Shown here in pieces: positions 32,461 to 38,364 of a stretch of DNA of 64,000 nucleotides (positions are counted from its first letter, which is position 1; the number at the start of each line of letters is the position of its first letter). This stretch comes from Leucobacter chromiireducens subsp. chromiireducens (GTDB lineage Bacteria; Actinomycetota; Actinomycetes; Actinomycetales; Microbacteriaceae). The notes below the pieces were generated by a model that did not search any database, was not told where the DNA came from, and saw nothing but the letters and a program-made list of their open reading frames with translations. The position numbers and the translations under genes were made by a program. The DNA lies in assembly GCF_016758255.1 (NCBI RefSeq), contig NZ_QYAD01000002.1, positions 310,001 to 374,000 on the forward strand, written 5' to 3'.

Positions 32461-33129
32461 ATGTCTGCGTCTCAATCTTCCCAACCAGTCGCTCGGACCT
32501 ACAGCTCTCCGCTTCGTGAGGAGCAGGCGGCAGAGACGCGGCTGCGTGTGGTTCGTGCTGCTGCCAAGCTGTTCGCTTCCGCGGGATACGAGGGCACATC
32601 GCTTGCTGATTTGGCCCGCGAAGCGGGGGTCTCATTGGGGACAATGAAGGCAAGTGGCCCGAAGCGTGAACTGCTGCTCGCCGCATTCGAACTGAGCTTT
32701 GCAGGCGCCGAAGGGATCGACACGCTGGCGTCGCATGAGCCTATTGTCGAGATCACGGCAGACGAGGACAATGAGAAGTACGTCTTCGGTATTACTCACT
32801 TCGTCGCTGAGTCAAACCGTCGCAGTAGTCGGCTCTGGGCTGCGTTGGTGTCCGCCGCAATATCTGACAGCAACCTCAATGATGCGCTCGAAGGCCTCCG
32901 CCAACGACGGCGAAAAGACATGCTTGTCCTCGTAGATGAACTATGTAGCCGAGGCATTGCATCGTCACGGGTGAATCGTGAGGCACTGGCAGACGGGCTC
33001 TCTTTCCTCCTCTCACCGGAGGGGTACAGCCAACTCGTCCTTGAAGCCAGGTGGGACCATCGCGACTACGAGTCATGGCTCAACAGCATGGTATTTTCTG
33101 TGGCGCGGCAGCTCTCTGCGGCAGAGTGA
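32461..33129 (+). CDS. TetR/AcrR-family regulator
   Basis: Transcriptional repressor of 222 residues. Seen: the N-terminal helix-turn-helix domain (~residues 24-72, RLRVVRAAAKLFASAGYEGTSLADLAREAGVSLGTM) and a helical ligand-binding C-terminal part. One change is notable: after the recognition helix the usual YxHFxxKexL is replaced by ASGPKRELL. Divergent from the glycosyltransferase, which is its likely target; a glycosylated or toxic substrate may be the inducer (inference). Confidence 0.88.
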   Translation: MSASQSSQPVARTYSSPLREEQAAETRLRVVRAAAKLFASAGYEGTSLADLAREAGVSLGTMKASGPKRELLLAAFELSFAGAEGIDTLASHEPIVEITADEDNEKYVFGITHFVAESNRRSSRLWAALVSAAISDSNLNDALEGLRQRRRKDMLVLVDELCSRGIASSRVNREALADGLSFLLSPEGYSQLVLEARWDHRDYESWLNSMVFSVARQLSAAE

Positions 33130-33430: not shown

Positions 33431-33560
33431 GATCCACGAACGAGTTGCAGCGGATTTGTGACATTTCGTGGTCTCGTCCCGTCTTCTACACAGGGCGTCA
33501 TTCTTCGCTCAAAAGATGGTGCGGCCGGCGGTCGTGCCACGAAACGTGGAGGTAGTTCTG

Positions 33561-34073
33561 ATGGGTACGGAAGAAACGAAGGCGACGGTCGCTCCCGAGA
33601 ACGGCGCCCAGGCGCCGCGGCGTGGAGGGGCTCCGGTGCAGCCGCGAGTAGATCGAGCGCCTGTAGTTCCGCAGAGTTCGACCGCCGACAATGGTTCGAC
33701 GGGACGGACAACGATAGCCGAGGGCGTGGTCGCGAAGGTTGCGGGTATCGCAGCTCGGGAGGTTTCCGGCGTACATGCACTCGGCGGGGGAGGCGCTCGC
33801 GCGTTCGGTGCTATCCGGGACGCGGTGAACGCGACGGACCTCACTCAAGGGGTAAAGGTTGAGGTCGGCGAGACCCAGGCGGCCGCCGACATCACAATCG
33901 TTGTCGACTACCCTGCCCCCATCCAGGATGTCGCCGAGAACGTTCGCAGCGCAGTGACCGCAGCGATCACCAGGCTGGTTGGACTGCAGGTTGTCGAAGT
34001 GAACGTTGACGTGAATGACGTGCACCTTCCATCCGACGACGTTGACGACGACACAGAGTCGCGCGTCTCATGA
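33561..34073 (+). CDS. Asp23/Gls24-family envelope stress protein
   Basis: 170 residues. Seen: a disordered N-terminus (~1-50, Ala/Pro/Arg-rich), then the Asp23 fold (TTIAEGVVAKVAGIAAREVSGVHALGG, VKVEVGETQAAADITIVVDY, IQDVAENVRSAVTAAITRLVGLQVVEVNVDVNDVHL). Family members associate with the membrane through AmaP-type anchors and respond to alkaline or envelope stress. ATG 33561 follows GGAGG. First of a tightly packed gene run; its TGA overlaps the next ATG. Confidence 0.88.
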   Translation: MGTEETKATVAPENGAQAPRRGGAPVQPRVDRAPVVPQSSTADNGSTGRTTIAEGVVAKVAGIAAREVSGVHALGGGGARAFGAIRDAVNATDLTQGVKVEVGETQAAADITIVVDYPAPIQDVAENVRSAVTAAITRLVGLQVVEVNVDVNDVHLPSDDVDDDTESRVS

Positions 34074-34261
34074 GTGCCACGCTGACCGGGTCGATGGTCG
34101 GCGCAGTACTGGCTTTCGCTGCGCTGGTCTTCGGGTTCTGGGGATTCTTGCTGGTCGGGATCCTGATGTCGATTGGGGCCTTGGTTGGCCGTGTTCTGGC
34201 AGGCCAGCTAGATCTCCGTGCCCTAGCTGGCGCATTCACGGGGAGGCGGAGGTCGTCATGA
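34070..34261 (+). CDS. small membrane protein of the Asp23 cluster (DUF2273-like)
   Basis: 63 residues with two hydrophobic spans (~8-28, ~25-43) and a basic tail. ATG overlaps the stop of the Asp23 gene and its own stop overlaps the next ATG (ATGA both times). Small two-span proteins of this type are a standard member of Asp23 clusters. Confidence 0.75.
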   Translation: MSATLTGSMVGAVLAFAALVFGFWGFLLVGILMSIGALVGRVLAGQLDLRALAGAFTGRRRSS

Positions 34262-34647
34262 GCGTGATGGCCGTTGAACCCCCGAGCGCTGTATACCCGT
34301 TCGACATCGATTCGCGCACGCCGGGCGGCGTTCGGGTACACGAACGCGTTGTCGCCAAGGTGGTTCGGGAAACGTCAGCGGTCGCTATCGGGGTATCGCG
34401 AGACCACGTGGACGTTGAGGTGACTGAATGGGGCGGAGGATTGGGCGTGCGAATCGCCGCGAAACTCCCCGTTCCGGATCTCAGCGACCTCGCAGCGCTC
34501 GAGGCTGCGGTTCCAGTCCTCGAGCGCGTGCATGAACTTCAGGCCGGGCTTGCCGAAGAACTCGCGACGCTGACAGGACGGGTGATCCATCGGGTGTCGT
34601 TCACGGTAACCGGGGCGGTCATTCCGAAGCGAAAGCGGGTGAGGTAG
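34258..34647 (+). CDS. second Asp23-like protein
   Basis: 129 residues. The sequence RVHERVVAKVVRETSAVAIGVSRDHVDVEV and the following VRIAAKLPVPDL resemble the Asp23 core, and the C-terminus is a helix-strand repeat (VLERVHELQAGLAEELATLTGRVIHRVSFTVTG). No signal peptide, so cytoplasmic. Translationally coupled on both sides. Probably a partner of the protein at 33561. Confidence 0.75.
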   Translation: MSVMAVEPPSAVYPFDIDSRTPGGVRVHERVVAKVVRETSAVAIGVSRDHVDVEVTEWGGGLGVRIAAKLPVPDLSDLAALEAAVPVLERVHELQAGLAEELATLTGRVIHRVSFTVTGAVIPKRKRVR

Positions 34648-35229
34648 ATGACGAATGCCGTGCTGAAGCGGATAGTGCGTCGCGAGATGCACTCTCCGCG
34701 CACCGTTCCCGCCGTGATCGTCCTTGTCTTGATCGCGCTGACTGCCGTCTATGCGGGTATCGAACTCGTCCTTCGCCTGTTGGGTGCTAGTCCTTTGCTG
34801 ATCTCGCCAGGGGCAGCGCTGACATGGCCGCAGGAGGTACCGCACCAACGAGAGGGCATGATTGTTGCAGGCGGGTTCCTGGTGGTGGTGGTCGGAACCA
34901 TGCTTATCTGGTTCGCTCTTGGCCCTGGCCGGAGGCCGAAGCATGAACTTGAGGTCTCCTCGCACGCTGTCATCGTTGACAACGGGGTGATTGCGTCGGC
35001 CGTGGCCGAGCGGGTGCGGCGTGAACTGGACCTCTCGAAGGGCGCCGTCGTGGTGGGAGTCGGGCACCGCAGCGCGGATGTCACGGTCAAGCCAGAACCC
35101 GGGCAATCAGTCGACAGATATCAGGTAAGCACCATTGCGGAGGCTGAGCTCTCCGGGTATCGGCTGTCGCCTCCTGTGAAGGTACGAGCGCGTGTCGTCC
35201 GGCCCACAGAAAAGGACGGTGGGTCATGA
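34648..35229 (+). CDS. DUF6286-like membrane protein of the Asp23 cluster
   Basis: 193 residues with two membrane segments (VPAVIVLVLIALTAVYAGIE and MIVAGGFLVVVVGTMLIWFAL) and a C-terminal cytoplasmic alpha/beta domain (HAVIVDNGVIASAVAERVRRELDL) that itself looks Asp23-like. It starts directly after the previous stop and its end overlaps the next start. Likely a membrane anchor for the soluble Asp23 proteins. Confidence 0.75.
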   Translation: MTNAVLKRIVRREMHSPRTVPAVIVLVLIALTAVYAGIELVLRLLGASPLLISPGAALTWPQEVPHQREGMIVAGGFLVVVVGTMLIWFALGPGRRPKHELEVSSHAVIVDNGVIASAVAERVRRELDLSKGAVVVGVGHRSADVTVKPEPGQSVDRYQVSTIAEAELSGYRLSPPVKVRARVVRPTEKDGGS

Positions 35230-35843
35230 ACGCCACGAATCGAGGCCTGAACCGAGCAATCCTCTTCACCGTTGGCATTCTGATGATTGGCCTGGGAGGG
35301 GCAATGCTGTTGGCCATGTGGTGGCCCGTCGCAGGTGAACTTTGGCTGCGCTGGTCAGCGACCGGCAGGGAATGGCTGGTAGGTGCAGAGCAAGCGTCTC
35401 GCCTTGCTGCGGCCACGACAGTGAGCTGGCTCACCATCGCGATCCTCGTTCTGCTGCTCGTGATGGTGACGATCGCGGTGGTTGTCATCGCCCGGCTCGG
35501 AGGCGGGAGAAGCAACGTAGTGATCCGTGAGGATGCCGGAACTGGGGTGAGAGGGTCGGTTACCATACGCCAAGAGTTCGTGGCTGACGCGGTCACGCAG
35601 TCTCTTGCCTCGTATGACGAGATCCTCTCCTCTAAGGTAAACGCCCGCAGGCTTCGGGGTGCCGACATTCTCCATGTGAGCGTGACACCGAGACAGAACG
35701 TTTCTCCTGCTGATGTCTCCGAAACACTGGCGGAACTCATCGACCGTCTGGGGGTCTTAATGGGGCAGGAGATTCCGACTATTGTGACGATCCAGGCCGG
35801 GATTCGCTCGCGGCTCGCGGCTGACAAATCCCGGGTGAACTGA
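35226..35843 (+). CDS. AmaP-like membrane anchor
   Basis: 205 residues. Seen: two membrane segments (~10-35 and ~68-90) followed by a cytoplasmic domain (SVTIRQEFVADAVTQSLASYDEILSSKVNARRL, DILHVSVTPRQNVSPADV). The layout matches the alkaline-shock membrane anchor AmaP, which recruits Asp23. ATG 35226 overlaps the preceding stop. Confidence 0.75.
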   Translation: MNATNRGLNRAILFTVGILMIGLGGAMLLAMWWPVAGELWLRWSATGREWLVGAEQASRLAAATTVSWLTIAILVLLLVMVTIAVVVIARLGGGRSNVVIREDAGTGVRGSVTIRQEFVADAVTQSLASYDEILSSKVNARRLRGADILHVSVTPRQNVSPADVSETLAELIDRLGVLMGQEIPTIVTIQAGIRSRLAADKSRVN

Positions 35844-35882
35844 CTCCCTCAAATGCGGGGGGAGCGACGAAAGGAACAAGCG

Positions 35883-36098
35883 ATGCGCAAAAATGTACTG
35901 ATACTCGGTGTGATCGCCGTCGCCGCCTATCTGGTCGGTGTTGAGTCGGCGAAAGCACGCGGGAAGAACTACGAAGACCTTCGGCATCAACTCGAACGGC
36001 TCTGGACCAACCCTGAAGCCAAGAAGTCGCGCAAACGTATGGCGAAGAACGCCAGAAGATCATTCGAGAAGGCTCGCAAAAACTTCCTTGGAAGCTAG
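35883..36098 (+). CDS. small membrane-anchored basic protein
   Basis: 71 residues from ATG 35883, which has AAAGGAA 7 nt upstream. One N-terminal hydrophobic span (VLILGVIAVAAYLVGV), then a strongly basic helical tail (KKSRKRMAKNARRSFEKARKNF). Resembles YtxH-type stress proteins in size and layout, but no firm family assignment. Confidence 0.65.
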   Translation: MRKNVLILGVIAVAAYLVGVESAKARGKNYEDLRHQLERLWTNPEAKKSRKRMAKNARRSFEKARKNFLGS

Positions 36099-36181
36099 CG
36101 CACACCGACAGTGCGCCACTGTCCACGGAACCTCGCTCCCCAATCTGGTGAGCGTTTCAGAGAATGGAAGGAAATCACGCT

Positions 36182-36355
36182 ATGAGCGCAGAAGACAAGA
36201 TCAAGGCCGCAGCTGAGAAAGTCGTCGGGGGTATTAAGGAGACAGCAGGCAAAGCTACCGACAACGACAAGCTCGTCGCCGAGGGGAAATCGGAGCAAGC
36301 GAAGGGCACGATTCGGGAGAAAGCGGAGGATATCAAGGACGCATTCAAGAAGTAA
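36182..36355 (+). CDS. CsbD-family stress protein
   Basis: 57-residue hydrophilic protein with the CsbD pattern (KIKAAAEKVVGGIKETAGKATDNDKLVAEGKSEQAKG). Members are small, abundant general-stress proteins of unknown mechanism. ATG 36182 follows GGAAGGAAA. Confidence 0.9.
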   Translation: MSAEDKIKAAAEKVVGGIKETAGKATDNDKLVAEGKSEQAKGTIREKAEDIKDAFKK

Positions 36356-36423
36356 CACTGCCACCGGGGCGGGGAATCCCCGCACCGGTTCCCAAATCTC
36401 GCACATTCGAAAGGACGGCTCTC

Positions 36424-36690
36424 ATGAGCTTTTTCAGTTTCCTCATTCTCGGCTTGATCGCGGGAGCGATCGCCAAGCTGATTCTTCCCGGCAAGCACGG
36501 TGGCGGCTGGTTCGTTACGTTGCTGCTCGGCGTCGTCGGGGCGATGCTCGGTGGATGGCTCGGCGGTCTCGTTTTCAATGTCAACTTGCAGGGCTTCTTT
36601 AACCTTTCAACCTGGCTTCTCGCGGTTGGGGGCTCCATCCTGGTATTGCTCATCTACGGTTTGCTCACCGGGCGACGTGCGGAGAAGTGA
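36424..36690 (+). CDS. GlsB/YeaQ/YmgE-family membrane protein
   Basis: 88 residues, three hydrophobic spans, with the family signature GAIAKLILPGKHGGGWFVTLLLGVVGAMLGGWLGG. Such proteins accompany Asp23 clusters and transglycosylase-associated stress loci. ATG 36424 follows GAAAGGA. Confidence 0.92.
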   Translation: MSFFSFLILGLIAGAIAKLILPGKHGGGWFVTLLLGVVGAMLGGWLGGLVFNVNLQGFFNLSTWLLAVGGSILVLLIYGLLTGRRAEK

Positions 36691-36812
36691 CACAACCTCC
36701 TATCCCGTGGACTAACTGACGCTTACCGGTCATGATGAGGGGAAATGGGTGGGCATCGCACCGCCCGTTGGCCCTCGCTGGAGAGGTGCCCTTCAAATCA
36801 GGGGGATGAAGG

Positions 36813-37379
36813 ATGAGCAGTGAGCCTTACCGCAACCCGTTGGAGTACGCGGACGATCGGATTCTCGCCGGGCGTGCTGCAGACGGGGACACGGCAGCAT
36901 TCGCCGCTCTGGTTCGCCGGCACACTCCGATGATGCGTGCGTATGCGCGACGGATTCTCCCCGGAAGCGCGGATGTTGATGACGTTGTCCAAGACGCGTT
37001 TATCGCCGCTTGGGACCAGCTGCCGAAGCTGGAAGACGCCGGCCGAGTGAGGAGCTGGTTGTTGCGGATTGCGGGCCGCAAGGCTATCGACCGCATCCGA
37101 TCCACCGGACCCCGCGCTGATCTGAACGAGACGGAACTAATGGCGCCTGAACGGATGGCCCCGCATCGACAGGCTGAGGCTCGAGCAGGGATCGCGGCGC
37201 TCAGCGATGCGATCAACCAACTCCCCGATGCACAGCGTGAATGCTGGGTGCTGCGTGAGCTCGGGAGCTACAGTTATGAGGAAATCGGCCAAGACTTGGA
37301 TCTCCCGGTATCGACAGTTCGTGGTTTGCTCGCCCGTGCGCGTAAAGACATCATTGTTCGAATGGAGCATTGGCGATGA
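36813..37379 (+). CDS. ECF-type sigma-70 factor
   Basis: RNA polymerase sigma factor of 188 residues. Seen: region 2 (~30-95, DDVVQDAFIAAWDQLPKLE, WLLRIAGRKAIDRIRS) and region 4 (~135-182, LPDAQRECWVLRELGSYSYEEIGQDLDLPVSTVRGLLARARK). No region 3, so ECF type. ATG 36813 has AAGG 5 nt upstream. Its TGA overlaps the ATG of the next gene, the position where anti-sigma factors usually sit. It probably controls this cluster (inference). Confidence 0.9.
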   Translation: MSSEPYRNPLEYADDRILAGRAADGDTAAFAALVRRHTPMMRAYARRILPGSADVDDVVQDAFIAAWDQLPKLEDAGRVRSWLLRIAGRKAIDRIRSTGPRADLNETELMAPERMAPHRQAEARAGIAALSDAINQLPDAQRECWVLRELGSYSYEEIGQDLDLPVSTVRGLLARARKDIIVRMEHWR

Positions 37380-37996
37380 ATGATCAAGAGATCTCTGATC
37401 TGCGGAGTCCCATGCCCCGGTTCGAAGACCTCGACGGGCACACCATTGAAGAACTCTCCGATTACTTGGACGCTGGGCGCACACCCACGGACCCCTCTAT
37501 CGAAGCATCGCCCGGCTGCCGCATCGCCCTGGACGCGTTGGGCCGACTTCGCGACCTCACTCCCGAGCTCCTTGCCTTCGATACCGCTGGAGAACCTGAA
37601 CCCGAGGAGACATGGGTACAACGCATCCTCTCCGGTATCGCCCTGGATGCGCATGCTGGACGACGCATCCCCCTCACCGCCCCCACTCCCGATGTTGATC
37701 TCGGGATCACTGAGGGCGCGGTCAGGGGGATGATCCGCGCAGCAGAGGCCACTGTGCCTGGCGTAGTTATCGGCAAATGCCGGTTCGAGGGCGATGTCAC
37801 GGTGCTGGGGGAGCCGGTGCGGGTTCACGTTGAGGTCAGCGTCCCGTACGGTGTGCCGATCCCAGATATTGCAGAACGCCTCCGTACTGAGATCAGCGCT
37901 CGATTGGACGCGCATACCACGCTGAGCGTGGATGGGATTGATATCACTGTGCGAGATGTTCAGCAGTTTCGACCTGCAAAGAAAGGAATCCGATGA
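37376..37996 (+). CDS. Asp23-domain protein coupled to the sigma factor
   Basis: 206 residues, soluble. Two parts: an N-terminal helical region (~10-75, LDGHTIEELSDYLDAGRTP...IALDALGRLRDLTPELLAF) that looks like the helical core of anti-sigma domains but has no HxxxCxxC zinc motif, and a C-terminal Asp23-like domain (~100-190, LGITEGAVRGMIRAAEATVPGVVIG, VRVHVEVSVPYGVPIPDIAERLRTEI). No membrane segment. Start and stop both overlap neighbours (ATGA). The position suggests an anti-sigma or sigma-adaptor role; this is inference. Confidence 0.75.
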   Translation: MNDQEISDLRSPMPRFEDLDGHTIEELSDYLDAGRTPTDPSIEASPGCRIALDALGRLRDLTPELLAFDTAGEPEPEETWVQRILSGIALDAHAGRRIPLTAPTPDVDLGITEGAVRGMIRAAEATVPGVVIGKCRFEGDVTVLGEPVRVHVEVSVPYGVPIPDIAERLRTEISARLDAHTTLSVDGIDITVRDVQQFRPAKKGIR

Positions 37997-38364
37997 TCAG
38001 CCCGGTAGATCAGGCAATGACCGCGGATATCGAAGCTGCAATCCGAACCGTTCCGGGGGTGACTACACTTTTCCGTGCGGGTGGCGTCATCTCGAAAGCG
38101 GTCGATGTTGGCGCTCAACTCCTGGGAACCCCTCAGGCCGAGCTACCGCTCATCCGCTGGGAGCACCAATCGGCTAAAAATGCTCGAGTAGAAGCAGTAT
38201 TCGGCGTGCATGCGGACGCGGGTGCTACTGAAACTAGTCGCAAAGCACACGCCGCGATCACCTCGCTGTGTGCTGACCGCGGCTATTCTCCTGTGGCGAT
38301 CCATCTCACGGTTGTCCATATTGACGACGGTCGAGGCTCATATTCATCTGGCACAACAAGGTAG
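37993..38364 (+). CDS. hypothetical protein ending the Asp23 cluster
   Basis: 123 residues, soluble, not recognised. The core (RVEAVFGVHADAGATETSRKAHAAITSL... VAIHLTVVHID) has the alternating strand-helix-strand look of a short Asp23-like domain. The ATG overlaps the previous stop, so it is translated with the sigma partner. Confidence 0.6.
   Translation: MISPVDQAMTADIEAAIRTVPGVTTLFRAGGVISKAVDVGAQLLGTPQAELPLIRWEHQSAKNARVEAVFGVHADAGATETSRKAHAAITSLCADRGYSPVAIHLTVVHIDDGRGSYSSGTTR

Follow-up and report, generated by a model that had tools for sequence, protein, structure and literature searches.

Asp23 proteins are widespread in Gram-positive bacteria, and the operon that encodes Asp23 and AmaP in Staphylococcus aureus is under the control of SigB. 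The S. aureus Asp23 is a submembrane protein that reaches its position via AmaP. In vitro, it assembles into filament-like structures, and its molecular function has been called unclear (PMC6954212). Proteins of this family also occur next to extracytoplasmic function (ECF) sigma factors. Groups ECF286 and ECF292, the models of which come from Streptomyces rimosus and Mycolicibacterium cosmeticum, respectively, adjoin soluble Asp23-family proteins that are predicted anti-sigma factors, with the mechanism listed as unknown, in an account citing Casas-Pastor et al. 2021 (PMC8999054). An experimental study of such a pair was not among the matches listed in our literature searches. In the class I anti-sigma domains in general, zinc and zincless forms are intermixed, and helix 1 contacts sigma4 while helix 4 contacts sigma2 (PMC7406223). 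Here, a pair of this kind is described from Leucobacter chromiireducens subsp. chromiireducens. It was found in a 64,000-nucleotide stretch (contig NZ_QYAD01000002.1, positions 310,001 to 374,000 of the forward strand), subsequently called the window, within an island of 11 co-directional genes on the + strand between positions 33561 and 38364. The island starts with a canonical asp23 gene (33561-34073, +) and ends with the genes for an ECF sigma factor (36813-37379, +), its predicted anti-sigma factor with an Asp23 domain (37376-37996, +), and a third protein (37993-38364, +).

The product of 37376-37996 is very probably the anti-sigma factor of the 36813-37379 sigma factor because profile comparisons connect its N-terminal part, through intermediates, with zinc-type class I anti-sigma domains, the two genes form a conserved, coupled pair, and the asp23 genes are likely targets of the sigma factor. 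This role had already been proposed in a sequence-only reading of the window and is supported by the same three lines of sequence evidence. The reading had also presented the signalling route as not known to be described, which does not stand in this form because an anti-sigma role of Asp23-family neighbors has been predicted for ECF286 and ECF292 (PMC8999054).

The sigma factor gene overlaps the subsequent gene by 4 bp. Its product matched the models Sigma70_r2 with 66.4 bits and Sigma70_r4_2 with 51.2 bits, both above their cut-offs, and stayed with 14.1 bits below the cut-off of 25.3 for region 3, which is the domain composition of an ECF sigma factor. Judged by sequence comparison, the product of 37376-37996 should be composed of a degenerate class I anti-sigma domain at residues 20 to 95, approximately, and an Asp23 domain at residues 96 to 200, which scored 34.3 bits at a cut-off of 28. 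The protein does not contain a membrane span (the highest 19-residue Kyte-Doolittle mean was 0.99) or a complete zinc motif. In all these points, the earlier description of an ECF sigma factor coupled to a soluble protein with a helical N-terminal part and an Asp23 domain was correct.

The pair is conserved among the relatives of the window. Of 150 genomes of the family, 53 encoded the 37376-type protein, distributed over 37 of 85 genera; a profile search raised the number of genera to 42 of 85, with 158 of 398 genomes positive. The overlap was sought in other genomes: all 30 loci of a first set, which included the window itself and a locus with an internal stop codon (L009), had a sigma factor gene in front that overlapped in frame by 4 bp, as ATGA in 29 cases and GTGA in 1. 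The best 80 of 256 relatives, the "named loci," all contained the genes for the sigma factor, the anti-sigma factor, and the third protein; the first two overlapped by ATGA, GTGA, or TTGA in 79 of these loci and the last two by ATGA or GTGA in 64. The closest matches among these 80 came from Leucobacter, Gulosibacter, and Microbacterium, with Leucobacter ruminantium at the top (74% identity), and the relatives of the window presumably are Microbacteriaceae. A canonical asp23 gene was present within the fetched stretch in 71 named loci, on the same strand in 62 and on the opposite strand in 9, and the remaining 9 possessed the pair without an asp23 gene in this stretch. In a wider collection of 213 loci, representing 181 unique proteins, the sigma factor gene was directly upstream in 211, with an ATGA, GTGA, or TTGA overlap in 196 of them; no sigma factor gene beside the anti-sigma gene was found at the other two, L080 and L438. 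The stop codon in the anti-sigma gene of L009, also present as L215 (G101), is an internal TAG, and the linked asp23 gene (L285) is without the exact promoter described below.

The nature of the N-terminal part became apparent from distant relatives (L036 to L040), which possess the same two-part layout with C-x20/21-H-x3-C-x2-C or a near spacing in the N-terminal part. This motif is that of the zinc anti-sigma (ZAS) domain. The window protein has D, S, S, C at the positions where these relatives carry the zinc ligands C, H, C, C (alignment A2); in a larger alignment, the window type shows a gap at the first of these positions. An H-x3-C-x2-C element with an upstream Cys or His, by which a ZAS is recognized, is missing from the window protein, and its N-terminal domain is, as judged from these alignments, a degenerate descendant of the ZAS type and not a ZAS itself. 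Profiles of the window and the zinc type matched over their whole length with an E value of 1.5e-21. With the N-terminal domain alone, the window type scored 48.7 (probability 96) against the C-H-C-C type in a comparison that did not include decoys, and the zinc type scored 50.0 (probability 96.6) against 22 zf-HC2 proteins, at a maximum of 18.7 for 200 column-shuffled decoys. The direct comparison of the window type with zf-HC2 was weak, with a score of 18.4 that was exceeded by 1 of 200 decoys. The 22 zf-HC2 proteins had been selected by eye from 30 loci of the relatives, dropping seven of a membrane-protein type and one odd frame, and alignment A1 of the window type excluded L009 because of the internal TAG as well as L005 and L020 as near-copies. 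A sequence search of the PDB with A1 yielded two matches only, both with E values above 1. Read from its sequence, the window-type domain would consist of a part with three helices and a fourth helix. Residues that are invariant or nearly so in the window type include G21, L27, and Y30 in a region that resembles helix 1 and W80 and I88 in a region that resembles helix 4. Taken together, the N-terminal part looks homologous to zinc-type class I anti-sigma domains through intermediates, with three of the four zinc ligands lost.

The 181 unique proteins were sorted by the zinc ligands into 27 with CHCC, 5 with CxCC, and 149 with a lost site. In a tree of the cognate sigma factors, an outer clade of 24 contained C-H-C-C throughout, and the inner clade of 157 was composed of 149 lost, 5 CxCC, and 3 CHCC cases. 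At least four changes of the zinc state are required on this tree, which was a quick one with some long branches. Since the zinc site was lost in most of the lineage, this argues against a zinc-based redox switch as the input here. The Asp23 domain was kept in the relatives found, in part by construction, since the search used this domain.

The third line of evidence concerns the targets. A search for over-represented spaced words in front of asp23 identified GTGAC-N17-CGTC, which was present in 64 of the 71 named loci; one of these 64 (L098) looks like a chance match. CGTC is usual in the -10 elements of ECF promoters. The common form is TTTGTGAC...CGTC(T/C)(T/C)A, and in the window, an ECF-type promoter, TTTGTGAC-N17-CGTC, was predicted for the asp23 operon at positions 33455-33486 on the + strand, with the motif copy at 33458-33483, beginning with GTGAC at 33458 and with CGTC ending at 33483. 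In the family genomes, 77 of the 78 canonical asp23 genes were evaluated (G135:C1:1794213 was left out). Of the genes located at most 12 kb from an anti-sigma gene, 36 of 48 were preceded by the motif, compared to 15 of 29 among the unlinked ones; the controls at these 77 genes gave no match for the reversed sequence and 4 for the reverse complement. Upstream of csbD and glsB, which are mostly operon-internal, the motif with a spacer of 16 to 18 was found in 1 of 57 and 2 of 32 cases, respectively.

Of the 53 genomes that encode the anti-sigma factor, 39 contained a stricter pattern (73 sites; 7 in the reversed control), as did 15 of the 97 that do not (16 sites; control 26), the controls being summed by hand. 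The enrichment in the anti-sigma genomes was significant (Fisher P = 1.6e-12), with the relatedness of the 150 genomes not corrected for. Forty-four of the 89 strict sites were read. Of the 38 in anti-sigma genomes, 14 of which had been chosen to find unlinked targets, 23 were located before asp23 (13), csbD (7), DUF7882 (2), or sigma factor (1) genes; none of the 6 sites read in genomes without the anti-sigma factor was in front of any of these. A csbD gene behind the promoter was sometimes followed by glsB or DUF7882. These data make the asp23 genes likely targets of this sigma factor. A dyad search upstream of the sigma factor gene did not reveal a promoter-like word.

Genes for DUF7882 proteins were observed behind the same promoter at L392, L394, L402, and L403, in the last two after csbD, and a role of DUF7882 in this stress response is suggested. 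At L387 and L388, in two related genomes, a small hydrophobic protein is encoded directly behind the promoter; residues 1 to 110 of the protein at L387 gave no Pfam match.

When the loci were sorted by zinc state, 88 of the 102 with a lost site had the motif, as did 1 of 5 CxCC and 3 of 21 CHCC loci. A coupling of zinc loss to the use of this promoter was considered and rejected: two zinc-keeping loci nested in the promoter-bearing sigma clade, L423 and L426, have the promoter. The promoter therefore follows the sigma clade.

A connection to the Asp23 scaffold is indicated by the co-occurrence of the anti-sigma factor and canonical Asp23. Canonical Asp23 was encoded in 52 and the anti-sigma factor in 53 of the 150 genomes; both were present in 52, the anti-sigma factor alone in 1 (G084), and neither in 97, again without a correction for relatedness. 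According to a hand count, 16 genera contain both species with and species without the two proteins, which means that Asp23 and the anti-sigma factor were gained or lost together. In G026 and G076, the sole canonical asp23 gene shares a contig with the anti-sigma gene but is 2.7 Mb and 2.0 Mb away from it, respectively, so that linkage alone is not sufficient to account for the co-occurrence. G137, with an asp23 gene at a distance of 0.74 Mb, contained a partial match without an adjacent sigma factor gene being found.

A further indication came from islands without the sigma factor. All 27 relatives in A1 matched the Asp23 model PF03780 at a lax E value. Of 33 matches that lacked the first part of the anti-sigma factor, 27 (L441-L447 and L449-L468) were fetched with 5 kb and the other six were left out; these 27 islands came from a single genus, g91, and are not independent of each other. 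In each of them, a divergently oriented gene beside canonical asp23 encodes one two-domain protein, with asp23 adjoining on the other strand (27/27). The first part of this fusion protein corresponds to positions 77 to 199 of the window-type anti-sigma profile (score 67.5, probability 96.9) and the second part to the third gene of the window (score 43.9, probability 94.7; 100 shuffled decoys reached at most 17.2), both as profiles of five sequences. With these profiles, built from 5 of the 27 proteins, both domains were found in one frame in all 27, the weakest score of the second domain being 16. H-x3-C-x2-C was absent from all 27 fusion proteins, and a sigma-like match above 40 bits was found in one island (L441, 50 bits), not adjacent to the fusion gene. 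Judged from these sequences, the zinc-type part seems to be missing where the adjacent sigma factor is missing. In the window, the 37993-38364 product, encoded by a gene that is ATGA-coupled to the anti-sigma gene, appears to be a divergent Asp23-like protein. It gave no Pfam match and aligned with the last part of the anti-sigma Asp23 domain (hhalign E 1e-4, probability 58). The fusion of the two domains suggests a direct interaction between the Asp23 domain of the anti-sigma factor and the third protein.

Together, the co-occurrence and the sigma-less islands, in which the Asp23 domain was retained as a fusion with the third-gene domain, provide indirect support for the Asp23 complex as the input. 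An alternative, of some but clearly minor likelihood, accepts the anti-sigma factor and considers its Asp23 domain a mere dimerization or stability module, with the sigma factor being released by proteolysis or a small ligand. Soluble class I anti-sigma factors with other C-terminal modules do exist, such as ChrR with its cupin-like domain (PMC8999054), the Asp23 domain of 37376-37996 is divergent with its 34 bits, and a direct link to AmaP was not seen. Such a module would have to be reconciled with the near-perfect co-occurrence with canonical Asp23, which extends to G076 and G026 with their remote asp23 genes. It would also have to explain why the Asp23 domain was retained beside asp23 in all 27 sigma-less islands of the one genus. 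Both observations argue that the domain is functionally tied to the Asp23 complex.

Regulator and putative target product share the Asp23 domain, which would also be compatible with a homeostatic feedback. Surplus cytosolic Asp23 lacking an AmaP site would co-assemble with the Asp23 domain of the anti-sigma factor and switch the sigma factor off, or on, so that the sigma factor would gauge the amount of scaffold in place and not damage. In S. aureus, Asp23 forms filaments and is anchored to the membrane through AmaP (PMC6954212), which would suit such a device. The fusion partner of the anti-sigma Asp23 domain, however, is the 37993-type protein and not canonical Asp23, and we consider this feedback improbable.

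Evaluation of an anti-sigma factor with a scaffold input needs to consider a number of observations that speak against it. None of the 27 window-type and none of the 5 zinc-type members matched the Pfam anti-sigma or zf-HC2 models, so the anti-sigma link depends on intermediates. The promoter motif with a spacer of 16 to 18 was found upstream of the sigma factor gene in 3 of 80 loci, and a self-activation of the sigma factor thus needs read-through. In the genome of the window itself, the strict pattern had no site, and the long pattern, with up to one mismatch tolerated, matched at the island alone; allowing two mismatches added nine sites, with 3 in all in the reversed control. The exact promoter was missing from 14 of the 102 lost-zinc loci and was present in 1 of 19 loci of the outer sigma clade. 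The stretch aligned with the fourth helix was retained in the sigma-less relatives, so this helix may have a role besides the binding of sigma. The co-occurrence could merely mean that expression of asp23 requires this sigma factor. Finally, a mean-field coevolution analysis of 181 pairs (effective number, 126) placed 23 of the top 50 couplings in the N-terminal domain at an expected 23.3, and the strongest coupling of 1.60, compared to 0.89 to 1.19 in three shuffled pairings, is an excess that shared descent alone would give.

Alternatively, the sigma factor and the Asp23-domain protein may be hitch-hiking, just co-transcribed as stress genes, with the latter being another envelope protein and not a regulator of the sigma factor; the uninformative coevolution analysis can be cited in favor of this. 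This is the least probable of the explanations considered: the N-terminal part is linked to anti-sigma domains, the adjacency of the two genes is nearly complete, nine named loci have the pair with no asp23 gene in the fetched stretch, and the zinc motif of the N-terminal part is absent from all 27 proteins that have no adjacent sigma factor.

The preferred model combines the sigma factor, a soluble anti-sigma factor, the scaffold input, the promoter, and the regulon, and we hold it, as a whole, to be somewhat better than an even bet. In the unstressed cell, the N-terminal domain of the 37376-37996 product would hold the sigma factor. The Asp23 domain, probably with the 37993-38364 product, would read the state of the Asp23/AmaP scaffold beneath the membrane. 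Envelope or drying stress would alter the association with the scaffold and set the sigma factor free, which would transcribe the asp23-amaP operon from TTTGTGAC-N17-CGTC. In the window, read-through would include csbD, glsB, and the gene of the sigma factor itself; in related species, the sigma factor would also drive unlinked asp23, csbD, and DUF7882 genes. As a result, more scaffold and more of the CsbD/GlsB set would be made. We infer that the N-terminal domain binds the sigma factor, that this sigma factor reads this promoter, and that the state of the Asp23/AmaP complex is the signal; either the complex or free Asp23 may be read, and the effect may have either direction. A tethering of the sigma factor to Asp23/AmaP via the Asp23 domain is plausible. 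More speculatively, the anti-sigma factor may be a decoy subunit. Its Asp23 domain and the third protein would dock into the polymerizing Asp23/AmaP scaffold, the assembly state of which would determine the sigma activity, and reading of the scaffold would have displaced an ancestral zinc (redox) switch. This version is possible, with the odds rather against it.

All 11 open reading frames of the island were confirmed at the positions and on the strand proposed in the sequence-only reading. ATGA overlaps do exist, as was noted there, yet do not account for most of the junctions: 5 of the 10 are 4-bp overlaps, 1 is abutting, and 4 have gaps of 39 to 122 nucleotides. The canonical Asp23-family protein (33561-34073) scored 93.4 bits with PF03780 at a cut-off of 28. 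It is followed by a small DUF2273-like membrane protein with one hydrophobic span (34070-34261, +; 24.6 bits, just under the cut-off of 25.4) and a conserved protein without a membrane span and without a Pfam or NCBIfam match over cut-off (34258-34647, +). This type of protein is encoded between the DUF2273-like and the AmaP-like genes in 57 of the 80 named islands. Two membrane proteins with two spans each come next, one AmaP/DUF6286-like (34648-35229, +; 25.1 bits with DUF6286 at a cut-off of 35 and 22.4 with AmaP at 55) and the other an AmaP-like anchor (35226-35843, +; NF033218, 33.7 bits). Both remained below the curated cut-off of 55 for AmaP, NF033218, and are AmaP-like only. A small protein with one hydrophobic span and no family match over cut-off (35883-36098, +), a CsbD-family protein (36182-36355, +; PF05532, 61.7 bits at a cut-off of 40), and a GlsB/YeaQ/YmgE membrane protein of the Transgly_assoc family (36424-36690, +; PF04226, 34.4 bits at a cut-off of 25.3) precede the sigma factor. 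The island is flanked by a TetR gene (32461-33129) upstream and a tRNA gene and then argS downstream, and this tRNA was the sole match above the gathering score in the Rfam scan. A terminator scan found no terminator-like site on the + strand between glsB and the sigma factor gene. In this region, GC-rich inverted repeats were observed up to the sigma factor start in the window (36735-36815) and in L093 (3740-3820), possibly an attenuator. A hairpin as a conserved element is not claimed. A regular expression matched 7 of 80 loci; among six stretches folded singly, that of the window was no better than shuffled sequences (z = -0.92), while that of L093 was (z = -4.96).

Curtobacterium is a member of the same family as the organism of the window. 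During drying of Curtobacterium, two Asp23, two GlsB, and at least two CsbD genes as well as two unspecified sigma factors were upregulated (PMC12029717). This response fits the model, and the pair, if present in that strain, may control the asp23, glsB, and csbD genes concerned. The likely sigma-holding part, a candidate promoter, a candidate regulon of asp23, csbD, glsB, and DUF7882 genes, and a third partner are now amenable to experiments, and in natural sigma-less relatives the Asp23 half is available apart from the half that would hold sigma. The state of an envelope scaffold may serve the cell as a transcription signal.

In comparison with the known systems, the window resembles ECF286 and ECF292 in having an ECF sigma factor next to a soluble predicted anti-sigma factor of the Asp23 family. 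The models of these groups come from genera other than those of the window's relatives, the likeness is one by description, and these descriptions, in the parts of the source at hand, do not mention a degenerate zinc domain, a promoter, a regulon, or a third partner. An Asp23-family anti-sigma factor was thus already known as a bare prediction in other ECF groups. As far as the surveyed literature indicates, the new elements are the derivation of the N-terminal domain, the promoter with its candidate regulon, the joint occurrence with canonical Asp23, and a third partner that is naturally fused in other islands. The class I anti-sigma factors, the ZAS members RshA and ChrR and the zincless RseA and RskA, share with the window protein the helical N-terminal domain and the fourth helix, as read from its sequence, and the coupling to an ECF sigma factor, whereas the window protein has lost zinc ligands and carries an Asp23 domain as the presumed sensor instead of a cupin-like domain, a membrane span, or none. 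The fusion proteins of g91 likewise have the Asp23 domain of the anti-sigma factor beside canonical asp23 in 27 of 27 cases but lack an adjacent sigma factor and the zinc motif and carry the domain of the third gene fused on. Finally, as in the Asp23/AmaP complex of S. aureus, Asp23, AmaP-like anchors, and small membrane proteins are encoded in one operon, but control in the window is probably exerted by an ECF pair, the anti-sigma factor of which itself bears an Asp23 domain.

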